A program made the translations under genes and the position numbers. Below the pieces are notes generated by a model, which saw only the letters and a program-made list of their open reading frames with translations, had not been told where the DNA came from and did not search any database. A stretch of DNA of 32,115 nucleotides from a virus: positions 1-32,115 of IMG/VR virus record IMGVR_UViG_3300027970_000090. One strand, given 5' to 3'. This document shows, in pieces, positions 18,590 through 30,546 of this stretch (its first letter is position 1; each line of letters starts with the position of its first letter).

Positions 18590-19189
18590 TTAACAATTAG
18601 AACTATTAATATCCTTTAATAAAGAAATATTTAATTGATTAAAAACGAAGGTTGCAGTACAAATAATTTCATTTGCAGTTTGAAAAGAATATTCAATAGG
18701 ACTTAAACTAGTTATAAATGCTTGTGTATATTTAAATTCTATTATTTTATTGTTAAATTCATCTAAACCAAATAAACTAAACGTAGTTGTAAAATCTGAC
18801 ATGGGATTTGTTAATCGAATATCGTCAATTTCCATTATTATTGGTTCTGTTAAAGTAGTGGAACTATTTTCACTATTATTAAATAGATTTAACCATTTCC
18901 AAAGTATCCAATAGTTCTGATATCCATTATCAATTAAAAATTTCAAAGTTAGAGAATCATATGAAGGACGAGATATGCTAGATGCATTATAAACCTGTCC
19001 TCCGAAAGGAACTTTAATTTCATTAACCTTTATACTTGGCACCGGAGATCCAAATGTAGTAAATTGAACCTGATCTGCATTGTAATTTGATTCTATTACA
19101 AGATCTTGTTTTCTTTTTAATGCTATTGGCAAATCCATAACAAGTTTGAATTTGTCATTCCTAGATCTATTTAAAATTGATTGATTCAT
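18590..19189 (-). CDS. Tail tube-fold protein (baseplate or tube-initiator candidate)
   Basis: This 199-residue protein has a tail-tube-like pattern. An early FGSPVPSIKVNEIKVPFGGQ stretch is followed by RPSYDSLTLKFLIDNGYQNY, then a helix (WILWKWLNLFNN) and a C-terminal strand set (QTANEIICTATFVFNQLNIS). This matches tube proteins, which have a central long loop and a helix packed on a beta-barrel. It is distinct from the main tube at 27562 and lies just after the terminase gene and before the hub gene. A role as tube initiator or baseplate tube layer, as gp54 or gp48 play in T4, is inferred from fold pattern and position only. One base separates it from the terminase stop. Confidence 0.65.
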   Translation of the reverse strand: MNQSILNRSRNDKFKLVMDLPIALKRKQDLVIESNYNADQVQFTTFGSPVPSIKVNEIKVPFGGQVYNASSISRPSYDSLTLKFLIDNGYQNYWILWKWLNLFNNSENSSTTLTEPIIMEIDDIRLTNPMSDFTTTFSLFGLDEFNNKIIEFKYTQAFITSLSPIEYSFQTANEIICTATFVFNQLNISLLKDINSSNC

Positions 19190-22445: not shown

Positions 22446-24743
22446 TTAATTCCTAAAAGTGTTCGAGTAATTTCTTGCATTATATTTTTGTCTATATTCA
22501 CGCACTTCATCTCTTTCTCCAGAAACACTTCCCTTAGAATTGCCACCAGTTATAACAGTTGAACTTCCTTGATTATCAGATCCGTTTGATATTGCTCTTC
22601 TTAGTTCTTCTATGCTTTCGGGAGAAAGACTGGTTGTTTTTGGAGTTGGTGCTGGAATTGGCAGTGCTTCTCTCAAATCTATATTAGGAGGAGGAGTAAC
22701 AGGTGTTGGAGTTCCTATGGGAATCCATTTTTTGGGTGTTTCTACCCCAGTTGGACGATTAGAATCCACTTCAACACCATCTACTGTGTAAAATTGATCG
22801 TTTTCTCCACCCATTTCATTATTTTTACTATCATCCGCCATTGTAGATGCAGATCCATTTGAATCCACTTCAACACCATCTACTGCGTAAAATTGATCGT
22901 TTTCTCCACCCATTTCATTATTTTTACTATCATCCGCCATTGTAGATGCAGATCCATTTTTGTTAAAATTTTGATTGGTTAAAGCTTGTTCCGATGCTTG
23001 TTGTTTTGATTCTTGATCTTGTTCGTCTAAAGAATCTAAATACATACTAAGAGGAATTTGTATAAATGCCATTTCCGGACCTAATAGATATAAAAGATTG
23101 CTAGAAGCAGAAGCCAATCGTAACCACATTCCTTTATAATCCCCGTCCATTCCTCTTTTAATAGCCATTCCCAATTCATAAAGACCACCAAATAATGGAA
23201 TTCTTTTTAAAAACGTTCCCAAAGCACCTCTTCCGAATAATGCTCCTATTTTAGTAAGATTTCCTAGTTTAGATGCTACGGCACTGCTTGCAGAACCAAT
23301 ACCTCTTAAGATCGTTCCCATTATGCTAGAAGATTGTGCAACCGCTTTAATAGCATTTGTTCCTCTTGTGGCAAGAGCAGCAACAGAACCTGCAAGAGCA
23401 GCACTTCTTGTAACTAATCCCTTGGGTAAAATATTTAAAATAGCAGAACCAGCAGATGATGCAACTTTAGAAACTCCCGAACCAATTGCAGCCCATCTAG
23501 GTGCTACTTTTTTTGTTATTTGGCTACCAACTGCTACCGCACGTTTACCTGCACGTTTTTTCATTAAAAAAGCACCCAACGAACCAACACCTAATCCACC
23601 ATATAAAAACAGGTTTTTATAAAAATCCATTCCTCCCGGTTTATCAACTCCCATTGCGGAAGAAGCAACGTCAATAGCATCACTGGCAACTTTGGTACCA
23701 GTTAATTTATCTATATATTTTCCAATAGATTCTCCGAAAAATCCCAAAGCCAATCCTGCACCGCCTATTGCCAATGAAAAGCTTGAAAGAGGAAGTATTA
23801 GCTTACGAAGTATAAACCTAGCAAACGTGCCAACAATCGCTAGCAATCCTACGGTTATTCCTAAACCCGCAAGTCCTGCCAATGCCATTCCTCCTCCACC
23901 AGAACCGCTTGGTTTATCAGAAATTTCTTTGAGTTTTTTATCGCTTTGATTTAAAGTTTCATCAATAGCTTGTAAAATTTTTTGTTGGTCTTTAGCATTT
24001 ATTTTTAAAGAATTAAAAATTTCTGAAAGAGATTTTGGATCTAAAGTAACTTTAAGATTTCCATATGGATCTTTTTTATACAATTCTTTGCTAAATGGAT
24101 CTATTTGTTGTTTTTTTTCGATAGATTTTTTATAAAAATCCATCATAACATCCAGAGATAATCCAGTTTTTTCAGCGATTGTAAATAGCTTTGATTGATC
24201 TATAGTAAGCTTATCAGATTGATTGCTTATTAATTGATCAAATCTTTCTAATATTTTTTCTAATGCTGAATTAGAGGAATTATTATCAGATACTTCATCT
24301 GATTTATTTATATTTTCTTGTCTTTGTACAAGATTATTTTGAATATTTTCCGGAAATCCTAACGGATTTGTTATTTTTCTTATAGTTTCTTCATTGATTT
24401 TATCTAAACTATTTTTTATTTCATTCGAAACTTCTAAACTTTTAGATAAAATTTCTTTTCTTATAACATCTAGGGGAGTAGTATCAAGATTTTCAGACGA
24501 AATTCCTAATAATTTGCTTATTAATTCTTTATAATTTGTTTTTTTTGCTTCATCTGCAAGTGATTCTTTTGCCTTATATGCAATATTTGCAGCTTCGGCG
24601 TGTGTATTTTGGAATGAATCTTGAATATTTTTTGATGTTGAGGATGCTCCTAATAAAAGCTCTAAAAATATTTTAGAGTCTATAGACCCAGCAACAGAAA
24701 TTCCTTGATTTTTTAGAAAATTTTCTAACTCTTCCATGCTCAT
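22446..24743 (-). CDS. Putative tail tape measure protein
   Basis: The tape measure sets tail length and is ejected with the DNA. This 765-residue protein (T4 gp29 590) has a helical, charged N-terminal region (about 1-275). Then come glycine-rich hydrophobic segments (285-345: MALAGLAGLGITVGLLAIVG; LSSFSLAIGGAGLALGFFGE) and further Ala/Gly-rich helices (375-565) capable of entering membranes. The C-terminus is low-complexity. Residues 596-628 and 629-661 are near-identical 33-residue repeats. The gene follows two gp26-like genes and precedes the tube-cap gene, the usual place for a tape measure. It has its own late-type promoter, and an inverted repeat pairs its start codon with upstream sequence. 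The ATGs at residues 1 and 3 are both possible. Confidence 0.72.
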   Translation of the reverse strand: MSMEELENFLKNQGISVAGSIDSKIFLELLLGASSTSKNIQDSFQNTHAEAANIAYKAKESLADEAKKTNYKELISKLLGISSENLDTTPLDVIRKEILSKSLEVSNEIKNSLDKINEETIRKITNPLGFPENIQNNLVQRQENINKSDEVSDNNSSNSALEKILERFDQLISNQSDKLTIDQSKLFTIAEKTGLSLDVMMDFYKKSIEKKQQIDPFSKELYKKDPYGNLKVTLDPKSLSEIFNSLKINAKDQQKILQAIDETLNQSDKKLKEISDKPSGSGGGGMALAGLAGLGITVGLLAIVGTFARFILRKLILPLSSFSLAIGGAGLALGFFGESIGKYIDKLTGTKVASDAIDVASSAMGVDKPGGMDFYKNLFLYGGLGVGSLGAFLMKKRAGKRAVAVGSQITKKVAPRWAAIGSGVSKVASSAGSAILNILPKGLVTRSAALAGSVAALATRGTNAIKAVAQSSSIMGTILRGIGSASSAVASKLGNLTKIGALFGRGALGTFLKRIPLFGGLYELGMAIKRGMDGDYKGMWLRLASASSNLLYLLGPEMAFIQIPLSMYLDSLDEQDQESKQQASEQALTNQNFNKNGSASTMADDSKNNEMGGENDQFYAVDGVEVDSNGSASTMADDSKNNEMGGENDQFYTVDGVEVDSNRPTGVETPKKWIPIGTPTPVTPPPNIDLREALPIPAPTPKTTSLSPESIEELRRAISNGSDNQGSSTVITGGNSKGSVSGERDEVREYRQKYNARNYSNTFRN
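22762..22959. repeat. 99-bp tandem duplication in the tape-measure gene
   Basis: Bases 22762-22860 and 22861-22959 are two adjacent 99-bp copies differing at one base (TGTG against TGCG), giving Thr or Ala in the protein. Being a multiple of three, the duplication keeps the frame and doubles a 33-residue acidic segment containing NGSASTMADD and FYxVDGVEVDS. Near identity at synonymous positions means it is recent or maintained by recombination. Confidence 0.95.
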
Positions 24744-24770
24744 ATAGAATACTTAATCTAAAATGAGCAT
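24736..24770 (-). promoter_or_regulatory. Start-codon hairpin with a late promoter in its loop (tape-measure gene)
   Basis: On the - strand, ATGCTCAT (24770-24763) and ATGAGCAT (24743-24736) are exact complements around a 19-base loop. The second arm begins with the tape-measure ATG. The loop contains ATTAAGTA (24757-24750), a late-type octamer six bases before the ATG. Transcripts from upstream genes would carry both arms and hide the start codon; RNA begun at the octamer would lack the first arm. T4 gene e uses this logic. The pairing is directly seen; the regulatory role is inference. Confidence 0.6.
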
Positions 24771-24777
24771 TTCTATT

Positions 24778-25623
24778 TCAACTACCAACAAATAACATAC
24801 TATCAACTTCGATAATCTTGGAAACCTCTTCGTATTTTACGGTAGATAAATTGTTAATTTCACCTCTCCATTTAACAACTTTTTCTAAAATATTTTGAAC
24901 CAATGCGGCAGGAAGTTTTTCAACAAATTGAATTTTTTGTGGAATATGCATACTTTGATAATCAAAATCAGTTCCATTTAACTTTACATGTCTTATATAT
25001 TTTGAAGTTTCGCCTAAAAATGCCCCTGTTATTATGTTTTTAATTTCTTCAACTTCATTGGATTTTTTTTCTTTTCCGTAGATATAAGAATCAAATTTAT
25101 ATTCTTCGCTAAATGTTGGAATATCTATCAATACTTCCAATTCTACAGAATTTTTAGAAAAATTTATAATTTCAGCCTGTGGATGTGTATATTCTTTGAA
25201 ATTATTTAATACATCTGAGATATTCACATCACTTTCTATTTTCGGTTCTTCTTGAAATAATACTTTTATCTTATCAGATATTTGATATCGCATAGAAAAT
25301 GCTATAGAATGTTTGTCAATTGTTGTAAATTTTTCTACAATTTCTTTATCTTCTGAGCAATTAGAACATACTATCTCATAAAAATATTTTGAAAATGTAG
25401 ATTTCAAAACCGTTGAGTCTATAGCAGATTCTATTAAAGTTTTTTGCTGTTTTGCTGTAATTTCTTGTATTTTAACGCTTCTTTTTAATGATGGAATCCA
25501 AACATCACTGGAAAAAGATTCTTTTGATATATTATTTAAAATGTTTAAAGCTTCATTGAAATTTATTTGCGTTGTGGTTTGTTCTGACATAAAACTAATT
25601 ACTTCATCACTCTCCAAATTCAT
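24778..25623 (-). CDS. gp26-like baseplate/tail assembly protein
   Basis: This 281-residue protein resembles the T4 baseplate protein family that includes gp26. After about 40 residues it has VWIPSLKRSVKIQEITAKQQ, KYFYEIVCSNCSEDK and FTTIDKHSIAFSMRYQISDK, the sequence layout of that family (IPSLK..V, cysteine-bearing helix, D...YLxFxxR). The C-terminal part is longer than T4 gp26 (208 residues). It lies immediately before the tape measure, consistent with a chaperone for it. The start at 25623 overlaps the previous gene by 17 bases; an ATG at 25590 (residue 12, MSEQTTTQ) would remove the overlap and is a fair alternative. No enzyme motif is seen. Confidence 0.65.
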   Translation of the reverse strand: MNLESDEVISFMSEQTTTQINFNEALNILNNISKESFSSDVWIPSLKRSVKIQEITAKQQKTLIESAIDSTVLKSTFSKYFYEIVCSNCSEDKEIVEKFTTIDKHSIAFSMRYQISDKIKVLFQEEPKIESDVNISDVLNNFKEYTHPQAEIINFSKNSVELEVLIDIPTFSEEYKFDSYIYGKEKKSNEVEEIKNIITGAFLGETSKYIRHVKLNGTDFDYQSMHIPQKIQFVEKLPAALVQNILEKVVKWRGEINNLSTVKYEEVSKIIEVDSMLFVGS

Positions 25624-26571: not shown

Positions 26572-27525
26572 TTACTTAATAGTTTTTCTAACTAACATGC
26601 TATTTTTATAACCCGGATCATAAGTAAATTTAGGAGCAGCAGGAACAACCGAAAACCCTCTTGTAGTTACAATTCCATTATTATCTTTAGTGACAGCAGT
26701 ACCCGTTTCAAAAATAGGAGAACCATCAGCACCGTAAAGAGTATTTGTATATTTAAATCCTCCAAGTTCTCGGTTAGAACTGATATCTACCTGAGATTTT
26801 TCGGTTATATTTTCTCCACTAGCCATATTATTATAATCCTCCGCAGCAATACTATAAGAATCATATACAAAATCAACACTTATAGTTTGTAAAGAAGGAG
26901 AATTATAACCATCGGAATAACCTCCTACGCTTACAGGTGCTATATTATAGAATCTTATTAGTTTTCTTTTAAGCGGTTTGGTATATGCTCCTGCTTTTCC
27001 CATAAAAATTACATCTAATTTATTGGCTTTTACGTTATATTGAGGATCTCTTCTGGTTACAAATCCAAAATGTCCAACCAAAATCATCCAAGGACGAATA
27101 ACAAAATCAACAAAAGAAGCATTGGTTTCATTAAAAGTTATAGTCAATTTTCCAAATGGTTTTCTGCTACTCATAGTAACCGGAGCTTGAAATCCCGCAT
27201 ATTCTAAACCCGCATTAGAAGCATTTATACTATCGCTTGGAATTGATATTTCAGAAGCAAAAACACATGCTAAAAATTCATGACCCTGTTGATATTCATC
27301 AGATATTAAAGATTTAACAACAGAATCTTGTATGCCCCAAGAATCTTCAAAGCTAGAGCCGCTTTCGTATCTCCTAACATTATCGATAAAAGATTTTTTT
27401 AAAGCAAGTATGTCTTTAAATGGTATGGTTAAAAACCACTGACTCCCAACCGCTATAGAACTAGGCCATTTACTTATTATATCTAAATAATAAGGTATTG
27501 GACCGTTTAAATTTTCAAAAGCCAT
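26572..27525 (-). CDS. Second, larger tail tube-like protein
   Basis: This 317-residue protein has tube-fold features. An N-terminal helix and strand region includes GSQWFLTIPFKD, and a central stretch contains LTITFNETNASFVDFVIRPW and ILVGHFGFVTRRDPQYNVKA. Then come LDVIFMGKAGAYTKPLKRKL and a strand with ISVDFVYDSYSI. The end (about 230-317) is a looser region with Gly, Asn and Thr. It directly follows the main tube gene and has its own late-type promoter. It could be the T4 gp54-type tube initiator, or an additional tube or baseplate layer. No close match to gp54 sequence is evident, so the role is open. Confidence 0.6.
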   Translation of the reverse strand: MAFENLNGPIPYYLDIISKWPSSIAVGSQWFLTIPFKDILALKKSFIDNVRRYESGSSFEDSWGIQDSVVKSLISDEYQQGHEFLACVFASEISIPSDSINASNAGLEYAGFQAPVTMSSRKPFGKLTITFNETNASFVDFVIRPWMILVGHFGFVTRRDPQYNVKANKLDVIFMGKAGAYTKPLKRKLIRFYNIAPVSVGGYSDGYNSPSLQTISVDFVYDSYSIAAEDYNNMASGENITEKSQVDISSNRELGGFKYTNTLYGADGSPIFETGTAVTKDNNGIVTTRGFSVVPAAPKFTYDPGYKNSMLVRKTIK

Positions 27526-27548
27526 ATCAAATACTTATGTATGATATG
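27523..27548 (-). promoter_or_regulatory. Start-codon hairpin with a late promoter in its loop (tube-like gene)
   Basis: On the - strand, CATATCA (27548-27542) and TGATATG (27529-27523) are exact complements around a 12-base loop. The ATG at 27525 lies in the second arm. The loop contains CATAAGTA (27539-27532), a late-type octamer six bases before the ATG. The arrangement repeats that at the tape-measure gene: read-through RNA from sheath and tube would sequester the start, while RNA from the octamer would not. Confidence 0.55.
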
Positions 27549-27561
27549 TTATTATCAACAT

Positions 27562-28128
27562 TTATCTAGTAAGAAGCGGAGATGATTCTGGCTGAACCCA
27601 GTATTGATATGCAATTGTTGCCTGTGTAGTAACAATGTCGCCACCAGTGGTTACGTCAAGATTATAATCACCAATGTTTACACAATAAGCACCGATTAAA
27701 TTATAAACTCTTATAACCTGACCACCCTTGCCCATAAGTGCAAGACCAATATTTCCTAAATCTTTTACTTCATAAGCACCAGTGCTTGTTGCATCATCAA
27801 ATGTTCCGCGAGTCCAGAGTTCAAGCTTAGAACGAATGGATACGTCTTGCGGCATTCTAAAGGTTACATTCCAAGAATCACTTGAAGGATAGCTGGCGGT
27901 TCCGGGAACATTGAAGGAAAGTCCCATAAAAGGGACCGCAATGGTTTTAATCGCACGTTTAGGAAGACTTGTTGTAGTAATATATACTAAGTCTTGCTGA
28001 TCAAAAACAATGTTTGTTGCTCCAGATGATATATAAAGAACTCGGAAAAGATTTGTTCTTGCGAAATCTTTGTTGATAGCATTCTGAAAGAAGCTATTGA
28101 TATCTTGGTTTTGAAATAGGTTTGCCAT
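27562..28128 (-). CDS. 19: Tail tube protein (T4 gp19-like)
   Basis: This 188-residue protein (T4 gp19 163) forms the inner tail tube. It has the typical order: N-terminal FQNAINKDFARTNLFRVLYI, central VYITTTSLPKRAIKTIAVPF with the GLSFNVPGTASYPSSDSWNV long loop, then the helix with RSKLELWTRGTFDD and final strands (TTQATIAYQYWVQPES). It directly follows the sheath gene, as in T4, with a 21-base gap. A late-type octamer GATAAATA lies six bases before its ATG at 28128. There is no Shine-Dalgarno sequence, though the protein must be made in quantity. Confidence 0.88.
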   Translation of the reverse strand: MANLFQNQDINSFFQNAINKDFARTNLFRVLYISSGATNIVFDQQDLVYITTTSLPKRAIKTIAVPFMGLSFNVPGTASYPSSDSWNVTFRMPQDVSIRSKLELWTRGTFDDATSTGAYEVKDLGNIGLALMGKGGQVIRVYNLIGAYCVNIGDYNLDVTTGGDIVTTQATIAYQYWVQPESSPLLTR

Positions 28129-28149: not shown

Positions 28150-30546
28150 TCATCTAATAAGCTCGTTAAAATCAACACCTGTTCTGGTTGCAATGAAATC
28201 AGCTAAAATAAATTCAGCAGTTCTGACTGGTTGAATGTATATAGAAAGTCTGAGTTCATTGTTATCAATTACATCAGGAGTATTGTTACGTTCATCGCAA
28301 ACGATTCTATAGTCATATAAACCATCATTGTTTTTAGCTTGATTGAATATAGGAGCTAAACCATTAACCAAACGAGATCTGGTTGTGAATGTGTTAGGCT
28401 CGAATACATAGAATTTTAATAAACTTTCTGTCGTTTTTTCGAGTGATAAGAAGAGTCTTCTTACATTGATTCGATCAAATGCGGAAGGTTTAGTAAACAA
28501 TGTTTTCTGACCAAATATTACAAATCCATCACCGGGAAAGAATGCAATTGGATTGACATTTATTCTCGCAAGTAAATCACGTTGTTTTTGTGTAGGATTG
28601 ATTCCAACATCAGTAAGATTTGTTAAAACACCACGATTGAATCCAGCAGGAGCAGACCAAGGATATGCTATTTGTGAAGATGTTGCAAACACTGCGGCAA
28701 CATAACCAGAAGAAGGAATCCAAACTTGCTTGTTAGAAGCGGTATCATTTGTTTTAATCCAGTTTCCATAAACCGCTGCATAGCTTGAAACGCTTCCAGC
28801 ATAGAGGTTTTTTAATGGCCAATAGGTATCACTAGAAAAGACATAATTAGCATTTCTAGATACTTTTGAATCCGCTCCTTGAATGAAGATATATTTAAGA
28901 GGATCAGCAATGAAAACATGATCCTTTCTTGTATTATCAGCAAATGCTACAAATTGATTTGCAATGTCTTTATAATCCGCACATATTCCTGCAACCGGAT
29001 TATTTGTTTGATCTTTAAGTATTGTTGTATCAACAAAATAAGTATCATCATAGATATACGGAGCATTCACAGTAGAAGTTCCATACAAAGCAGTTTTTCT
29101 TGCTTTAGCACCTGTCCAGATGGTTCCTAATCCAGCTTCAGCAGTTACGTCCAAATCAATATCAAGATTATCGATATTATTTAAAATTCTTTGAAGTTTT
29201 GCTGGAACATTTCCAACATCACCCGCAACCGAATTTGTATCTGAAATATAAACGCCCTGTGAGAAAAGACTTTTAGTTTCATTAGCAGTTCTTACAGTTT
29301 TGGCTGGTAAACCATCATCATTAACCCAATCTCCAGTATTTGAAATATAAGGATTTATTACAACCTTAATCTTATTTGATGCTCTGTTTGCTATATTTTC
29401 CAAGAAGAAAGTATCAGCAGGACCAGCATTTCTATCATTTTGTGTACGTTTGCTATACAATGAACCAGTATAGCCCTCTGATACAATTGCGTCAATAACA
29501 ACCGTGTCCTGTGCATAAATAGAGGTACGAAGCTTAAACACCATAAGAGTTAAGCAATCATTATAATAGCTAGTTCCAAAATCAATTCCTATTGGAAACT
29601 GTTCAACTGTTTGAGAAATACTATTTCCTGCGGATGAAAATGATTGAGTCAGAGTAAAGTTTAATCTTGAGCTTGGAACTGTTACAAATGTTTGATAATT
29701 TCCATTAACAATTGTATTACTTGCTTTTACGCTTGTTATACAAGTAAAATCAGTTGCAGGGTTGCTATTGGAATTATCAGAAATAGCAATGTAATACCCC
29801 TCATAGAGATTATTGACAGAGGTTTTTACAGAATCGATGACAACAATACCGCCATAATTTTGAAGATCTTTAAAACTTTTGATATTGACAGCACTATAAG
29901 AATTTCCCCAAGCAACATTATTTTCAACGATATCCAAATATTGTTGATCAGAGAGCAAAATAGATTTAGGAGACAATACATCATATGATGTAGAATCCGT
30001 ATATGAAAGATTGGTGGTTGTTGCGGTATATCCGCTAATAACGTCTATGATTGTATTTTCATAAACAGCCTCTACTGATGTGAGACTGAGATAAGTAGTA
30101 TGTGAAATTTCGGTATCATATCCCAAATATACAGGATATGAATTAGTTCCATCAGAACTCAATGCAATATTTCCACTAACTGTACTTAATGCAGCTATTT
30201 TAGTTGTAGTTTTTCCTTGAAGAGGATATACTAAAGCAGTGTATTGATTGGAAAATCCTGCTCCTGCACCAGATCCGTATGGCATTCTTGTTACCAAAAG
30301 ATTAGTAGGAGATTGTGTTAAAAGTTGACGAGCAGAATGATAAAGATATCTTTCAGCTGCATTTGTTGGACTTCCGAACACTTCTTCATATTCAGAAAGA
30401 CTTCCAACATTGATAATCTCATCAGTTGGTCCTTGGCTGGCAAACCCTGTGATAAAGGTATTTGTTGCTCCAGTTGGTCTTGCAATAAGGCTAATATCTA
30501 CTTCGTTAATTTGTACACCGGGAGATGCTATGGTTCTTGTTGACAT
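28150..30546 (-). CDS. 18: Contractile tail sheath protein (T4 gp18-like)
   Basis: The sheath contracts to drive the tube through the host envelope. The 798-residue protein (T4 659) begins with the conserved sheath start (RTIASPGVQINEVDISLIAR) and the domain with GFASQGPTDEIINVGSLSEY. It ends with the conserved C-terminal core (INVNPIAFFPGDGFVIFGQK; FDRINVRRLFLSLEKTTESL; ELRLSIYIQPVRTAEFILAD). The middle (about 130-420) is a larger, variable surface domain, explaining the extra length. It is the first gene of the leftward late block. Its upstream region holds TATTATAAATT directly before the ATG and a possible late octamer a few bases further back; the exact element is unclear. Confidence 0.96.
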   Translation of the reverse strand: MSTRTIASPGVQINEVDISLIARPTGATNTFITGFASQGPTDEIINVGSLSEYEEVFGSPTNAAERYLYHSARQLLTQSPTNLLVTRMPYGSGAGAGFSNQYTALVYPLQGKTTTKIAALSTVSGNIALSSDGTNSYPVYLGYDTEISHTTYLSLTSVEAVYENTIIDVISGYTATTTNLSYTDSTSYDVLSPKSILLSDQQYLDIVENNVAWGNSYSAVNIKSFKDLQNYGGIVVIDSVKTSVNNLYEGYYIAISDNSNSNPATDFTCITSVKASNTIVNGNYQTFVTVPSSRLNFTLTQSFSSAGNSISQTVEQFPIGIDFGTSYYNDCLTLMVFKLRTSIYAQDTVVIDAIVSEGYTGSLYSKRTQNDRNAGPADTFFLENIANRASNKIKVVINPYISNTGDWVNDDGLPAKTVRTANETKSLFSQGVYISDTNSVAGDVGNVPAKLQRILNNIDNLDIDLDVTAEAGLGTIWTGAKARKTALYGTSTVNAPYIYDDTYFVDTTILKDQTNNPVAGICADYKDIANQFVAFADNTRKDHVFIADPLKYIFIQGADSKVSRNANYVFSSDTYWPLKNLYAGSVSSYAAVYGNWIKTNDTASNKQVWIPSSGYVAAVFATSSQIAYPWSAPAGFNRGVLTNLTDVGINPTQKQRDLLARINVNPIAFFPGDGFVIFGQKTLFTKPSAFDRINVRRLFLSLEKTTESLLKFYVFEPNTFTTRSRLVNGLAPIFNQAKNNDGLYDYRIVCDERNNTPDVIDNNELRLSIYIQPVRTAEFILADFIATRTGVDFNELIR

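Follow-up and report, generated by a model that had tools for sequence, protein, structure and literature searches.

A late promoter inside a start-codon hairpin at a probable tape-measure gene: a candidate RNA switch in distant T4-like phages

The tail operon and its start-codon hairpin

The window, by which we mean the whole 32,115-nt stretch of viral DNA analysed here, is a fragment of a distant T4-like phage in which sheath, tube, a gp26-type hub gene (PF12322), a gp53-like wedge gene and terminase are recognisable. On the - strand the genes follow one another in the order sheath, tube, A, B, C, tape measure, D, wedge and terminase, with these features:

28150..30546, - strand: tail sheath gene (PHROG tail sheath), first gene of the late tail operon, late promoter at about -18
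27562..28128, - strand: tail tube gene (PHROG tail tube), same promoter spacing and no start hairpin, an internal control
27542..27548, - strand: 5' arm of the gene A hairpin, CATATCA
27532..27537, - strand: core of the late promoter, TAAGTA, part of CATAAGTA and located in the gene A hairpin loop
27523..27529, - strand: 3' arm of the gene A hairpin, TGATATG, ATG included
26572..27525, - strand: gene A, 317 aa, tail-tube fold (from structure model and gene order)
24778..25623, - strand: gene C, 281 aa, without its own late promoter and with no predicted terminator ahead of the tape gene
24763..24770, - strand: 5' arm of the tape-measure hairpin, ATGCTCAT, lying in the 34 nt that separate gene C from the tape-measure gene
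24744..24762, - strand: hairpin loop, 19 nt, TTTAGATTAAGTATTCTAT, whose core TTAAGTATT is kept in close relatives
24750..24757, - strand: late promoter box ATTAAGTA, family motif TAA[AG]TA, 6 nt before the ATG
24743..24744, - strand: predicted 5' end of the late RNA, about -1/+1 of the ATG, placed by the T4 late box position
24736..24743, - strand: 3' arm of the hairpin, ATGAGCAT, start codon plus codons 2-3, ATG at 24743
22446..24743, - strand: probable tape-measure gene, 765 aa, mostly long helices (from position, length and predicted helices)

The 765-aa ORF is the probable tape measure by position, length and helical content rather than by homology, being the largest ORF between the hub-like and wedge-like genes and modelled, at low confidence, mainly as helices. 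It matched no PHROG or Pfam family, and its comparison with T4 gp29 gave a marginal local match (hhalign E 0.06 over 24 columns). Neither the tape protein nor gene C found a match when searched directly against phage records, and a scan of bacterial genomes for gene C found no relative. The model of gene A (pLDDT 57) matches the tube/Hcp fold, with VIA Z 9-11 to Hcp, T4 and KP1 tube-like chains, and on this model its product is probably a tube-end protein (gp54/gp48-like or terminator). The order of a tube-fold protein, a gp26-like gene and, further on, a long ORF resembles that of phiM9, by which the gene A product may be a tube initiator; profile comparison with gp54 detected no homology.

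Elsewhere in the window, a second tail-tube-family protein (PHROG 45, E 5e-15) is encoded downstream of terminase (18590-19189, - strand), and the family match of a thymidylate synthase ORF (1229-2917, + strand) is interrupted by an HNH endonuclease domain, the pattern that an intein or an in-frame mobile insertion would give. In the relative L006 (10911-12728) the terminase large-subunit ORF stops soon after SGKC and is followed by a 454-aa ORF, which looks like an intein or homing insertion and is absent from the window's 618-aa terminase.

The sequence-only reading had placed exactly complementary arms around a 19-base loop, the second arm opening with the tape-measure ATG, and had placed the promoter box within that loop, six bases before the ATG. 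Both descriptions were confirmed: the 8-nt arms ATGCTCAT and ATGAGCAT are perfect complements at 24770-24763 and 24743-24736, separated by 19 nt, and ATTAAGTA lies at 24757-24750 (- strand). Within the loop a further pairing is possible between TAGA (24760-24757) and TCTA (24748-24745), and a 50-nt piece of RNA folds into the 8-bp stem plus this inner stem at about -13 kcal/mol. On the single sequence the hairpin is modest and only mildly unusual: the 151-nt fold of the site has a z of -1.28, and in four related genomes a perfect stem of at least 8 bp covers 331 of 25,970 ATGs (1.3%). The left arm also opens a five-codon ORF, ATGCTCATTTTAGATTAA, on read-through RNA (window 24770-24753, - strand), which is not kept in relatives such as L029.

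Pairing across relatives

A search with gene C gave a family of 57 loci in viral contigs, and the junction between gene C and the tape gene was read in about 50 of them. In nearly all of these junctions the late-promoter motif precedes the ATG by about 12 nt, and a hairpin spans or abuts the ATG, with arms that differ from phage to phage. In place of the window's 5' arm, relatives have a sequence complementary to their own start region, and although the tape proteins of relatives are only 14-35% identical to that of the window, the arms change together, as in these pairs:

L024: TGTCATATA / TATATGACA
L029: GACATATAG / CTATATGTC
L030: TCCATATAG / CTATATGGA
L032: AAATGACATATA / TATATGTCATTT
L034: GGCATATAG / CTATATGCC
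L035: GGGCATATA / TATATGCCC
L037: AGACATATA / TATATGTCT

Two geometries recur, one in which the promoter forms a loop of 8-12 nt and another in which it lies within the stem, beneath an AATAA-type loop (L039, L054, L057, L064, L066). The stem is weak, shifted or missing in a few lineages (L041, L059, L062/L063, L075-L084), and in several phages it runs through the promoter and merely abuts the AUG, where occlusion of the start codon may be partial.

Whether the arms belong together was measured in 29 junctions less than 80% identical to one another, by folding the 22 nt on the left of each together with the 28 nt on the right of the same phage or of another. At the tape junction, cognate halves folded at -9.8 kcal/mol on average and swapped halves at -5.0, a difference reached in 0 of 20,000 permutations; at gene A the values were -9.3 and -6.5 kcal/mol (again 0 of 20,000). 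At the tube gene cognate halves gave -2.4 and swapped halves -2.9 kcal/mol (18,741 of 20,000 permutations), and across tube, sheath, TerL, D and B the test was not significant. In ten sequences of the same register the covariation score was 0.235 against 0.114 when shuffled (0 of 500) and dropped when the partners were slid along each other. Relatives use every one of the six standard pair types at the first base of codon 2. The AUG is paired upstream in 26 of the 29 tape lineages. G-U exceptions in the stems outnumber A-C exceptions, scored alike, by 17 to 7, a modest sign that the sense RNA is the selected form.

Loss of the pairing in relatives, had it gone uncompensated, had been named beforehand as an outcome that would refute the proposed silencing by the hairpin; instead, compensation keeps the pairing in most of the 29 divergent lineages. 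Judged by this comparison, the hairpin is far beyond chance, and we regard it as almost certainly real and under selection.

Late promoters and other start hairpins

Upstream of the ORFs of a 202-kb relative (G002), no six-letter words are more enriched than TAAATA and TAAGTA, which occur 46 times against 6.9 expected and 13 times against 1.15 expected, respectively. The core is most often found at -12 in this genome and peaks at -11 to -13 in two others (G004 and G005), and in nearly all tape lineages TAARTA lies at -11 to -14, in the loop or at the stem tip. A gp55-like late sigma gene was present in all five of the larger relatives searched (E about 1e-27). The T4-type box, TATAAATA, lies about one turn of the helix ahead of the start and is recognised by a gp55-type sigma factor; the window's box ATTAAGTA departs from it at three of eight positions, and the TAA[AG]TA core is general in this phage family. 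The enrichment, the sharp positioning and the sigma gene together back the earlier proposal of a late promoter in the loop, and on these grounds the loop motif appears to be the genome-wide late promoter of these phages.

In T4 the late box lies at -13 to -6 relative to the RNA start (PMC2988020). With a box-to-start spacing like that of T4, the RNA would be expected to begin at about -1, so that late messages, the predicted tape-measure message included, would be nearly leaderless. No ribosome-binding motif was enriched upstream of the ORFs, and the overall pattern suggests that nearly leaderless late messages are common in the clade. In four relatives (G002, G001, G004 and G005) the late cores cluster at -11 to -13 from the ATG, with no ribosome-binding motif enriched there.

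A start hairpin is not a general feature of these late promoters. This possibility was ruled out by G002, in which only 4 of 52 late-promoter ORFs have a strong one, and by tube, sheath and TerL, which have none; the tube gene, adjoining gene A and sharing its promoter spacing, has an essentially unstructured start. The four in G002 belong to gene A, the tape gene, a gene with a lectin domain and, immediately upstream of a phage lysozyme, a gene for a 143-aa membrane protein; this last case recalls T4 gene e. A putative holin followed by a PF00959 phage lysozyme is found at 9219-10258 of L008, with orthologues in G004 and G005, and the late promoter of the putative holin is accompanied by a start hairpin that is strong in G002 (-14.1) and weaker in G005. 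The gene A start hairpin is absent in several phages. A 73-aa gene with late promoter and start hairpin was seen on the - strand of G004 (155541, -11.7 kcal/mol) and G005 (164183, -13.1 kcal/mol), and is possibly a further member of the regulated set.

Outside the family, the device was not found at the starts of T4 genes 29, 48 and 54, the gene 29 start having neither promoter nor hairpin. phiM9 and the tail regions of AG-345-L05, S-8S56 and Aswh_1 yielded no equivalent, a weak negative as only two ORFs there have a promoter at this spacing, and the sliding-clamp family gave no signal, which is uninformative as its controls were equally silent.

A candidate switch and its known counterparts

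The best explanation of these observations is, in our view with good confidence, an RNA start-codon switch released by the internal late promoter. RNA arriving from the upstream genes (sheath, tube, A, B and C) would hold both arms, fold and bury the tape-measure AUG, so that ribosomes could not initiate the tape measure on it. The loop, as DNA, would serve as a late promoter, and RNA begun there would start at about the AUG, lack the 5' arm and expose the start as a short, nearly leaderless message. As the sequence-only reading had supposed, the start is predicted to be hidden in the folded read-through RNA: the computed probability that the AUG is unpaired has a median of 0.01 there, compared with a mean of 0.89 in RNA begun at -1. 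Because gene C lacks its own late promoter, the message that carries it is expected to continue into the hairpin, and prediction placed no terminator on the way to the tape gene. These sequence features make it probable that long messages yield no tape measure and that the gene is translated solely from its own short RNA. Tape-measure output would then be set solely by its own promoter, uncoupled from the abundant sheath and tube RNA, and the same switch would act on gene A and, in relatives, on the holin/lysozyme cassette.

What such a switch is for is less certain. A timing role, in which the hairpin keeps early or middle read-through RNA from yielding tape measure and gene A product prematurely, as in T4 e, soc and I-TevI, has precedent, since the reviewed T4 examples are late genes on early or middle polycistronic RNA (PMC2988022), and the hairpin before the putative holin and phage lysozyme of relatives is a classic timing case. 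Against it, the tail operon has a late promoter at its first gene, sheath, and the genes that come next upstream in the window are oppositely oriented, so RNA entering the tape gene should itself be late; moreover, the tube gene would need equal protection and has none. We therefore consider timing unlikely, though the most serious of the rivals, and favour control of amount because the upstream promoters of the operon are themselves late. That the purpose is stoichiometry, meaning amount control of low-copy tail parts, we would put at roughly even chances, and control of the tape-to-tube ratio is plausible. Slightly more doubtful is the broader proposal that phages throughout this T4-like clade use promoter-in-hairpin switches and leaderless late messages to adjust how much tube-end protein and tape measure, both low-copy tail parts, is made relative to the abundant sheath and tube of the shared late operon, which would be the first such tail-stoichiometry system.

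The hairpin might also serve translational coupling, with ribosomes that terminate at gene C opening it, the tape measure made in proportion to gene C and the promoter incidental. In the window the left arm begins 7 nt past the gene C stop, within reach of a terminating ribosome, and ribosomes ending there could open the hairpin, which counts against the switch. However, the distance from stop to arm is variable, being 7 nt in the window and about 24 nt in L024, while that from promoter to ATG is nearly fixed at -12, and almost all lineages that have the stem retain the promoter at its tip or in its loop; coupling thus seems improbable. A little less probable still is an element acting as DNA, an inverted repeat around the promoter that is bound by a dimeric regulator or extruded as a cruciform. 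Covariation alone cannot separate RNA from DNA self-complementarity, but a sequence-reading protein would not allow arms that vary freely between phages, which disfavours a fixed operator; G-U exceptions exceed A-C ones, in most lineages the start codon is part of the arm, and late promoters elsewhere have no hairpin. A chance inverted repeat in AT-rich DNA, for which the 1.3% of ATGs with comparable stems could be cited, is refuted by the swap test and the covariation in relatives and has a negligible probability.

The RNA switch bears on a balance that is poorly explained in phages, that of a few ruler molecules against hundreds of tube and sheath subunits from one operon, and it offers a concrete, conserved, one-site candidate mechanism for setting the proportion of ruler, tube and sheath proteins. 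It also suggests that these phages commonly use leaderless late messages.

Known counterparts come from T4, where genes e and soc have start-region hairpins with internal late promoters and where the switch logic of e and I-TevI was demonstrated experimentally (PMC3014915, PMC2988022). As at e and soc, the hairpin here would hide the start on long RNA and the internal promoter would yield RNA without the 5' arm. There, however, a ribosome-binding site is hidden together with the AUG and the late RNA keeps a leader, whereas here no ribosome-binding site is seen, the arm contains the AUG itself and almost no leader is predicted on the late RNA; and the target here is a tail-assembly gene that belongs to a late operon, not a late gene carried on early RNA. 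The homing-endonuclease hairpins of T4 I-TevI/II/III, segB and Aeh1 mobE (PMC2988022) share the promoter-in-hairpin anatomy, and deletion of the I-TevI 5' arm raised early translation (PMC2988022). Those genes are mobile, unlike the conserved structural genes described here, and family-wide covariation like that of the tape-measure hairpin was not found for the endonuclease hairpins in the literature consulted. Start-region RNA structure control has also been reported for the T4 baseplate genes 25 and 26 (PMC2988022), a helper hairpin bringing together the split site of gene 25 (PMC3014915), but neither is a tape measure. The mechanism proposed here is the known T4 e/soc/I-TevI device, and what is new is its place, at tail genes, by which a device reviewed for lysis genes and homing endonucleases would be extended to core virion assembly in a large uncultivated group.
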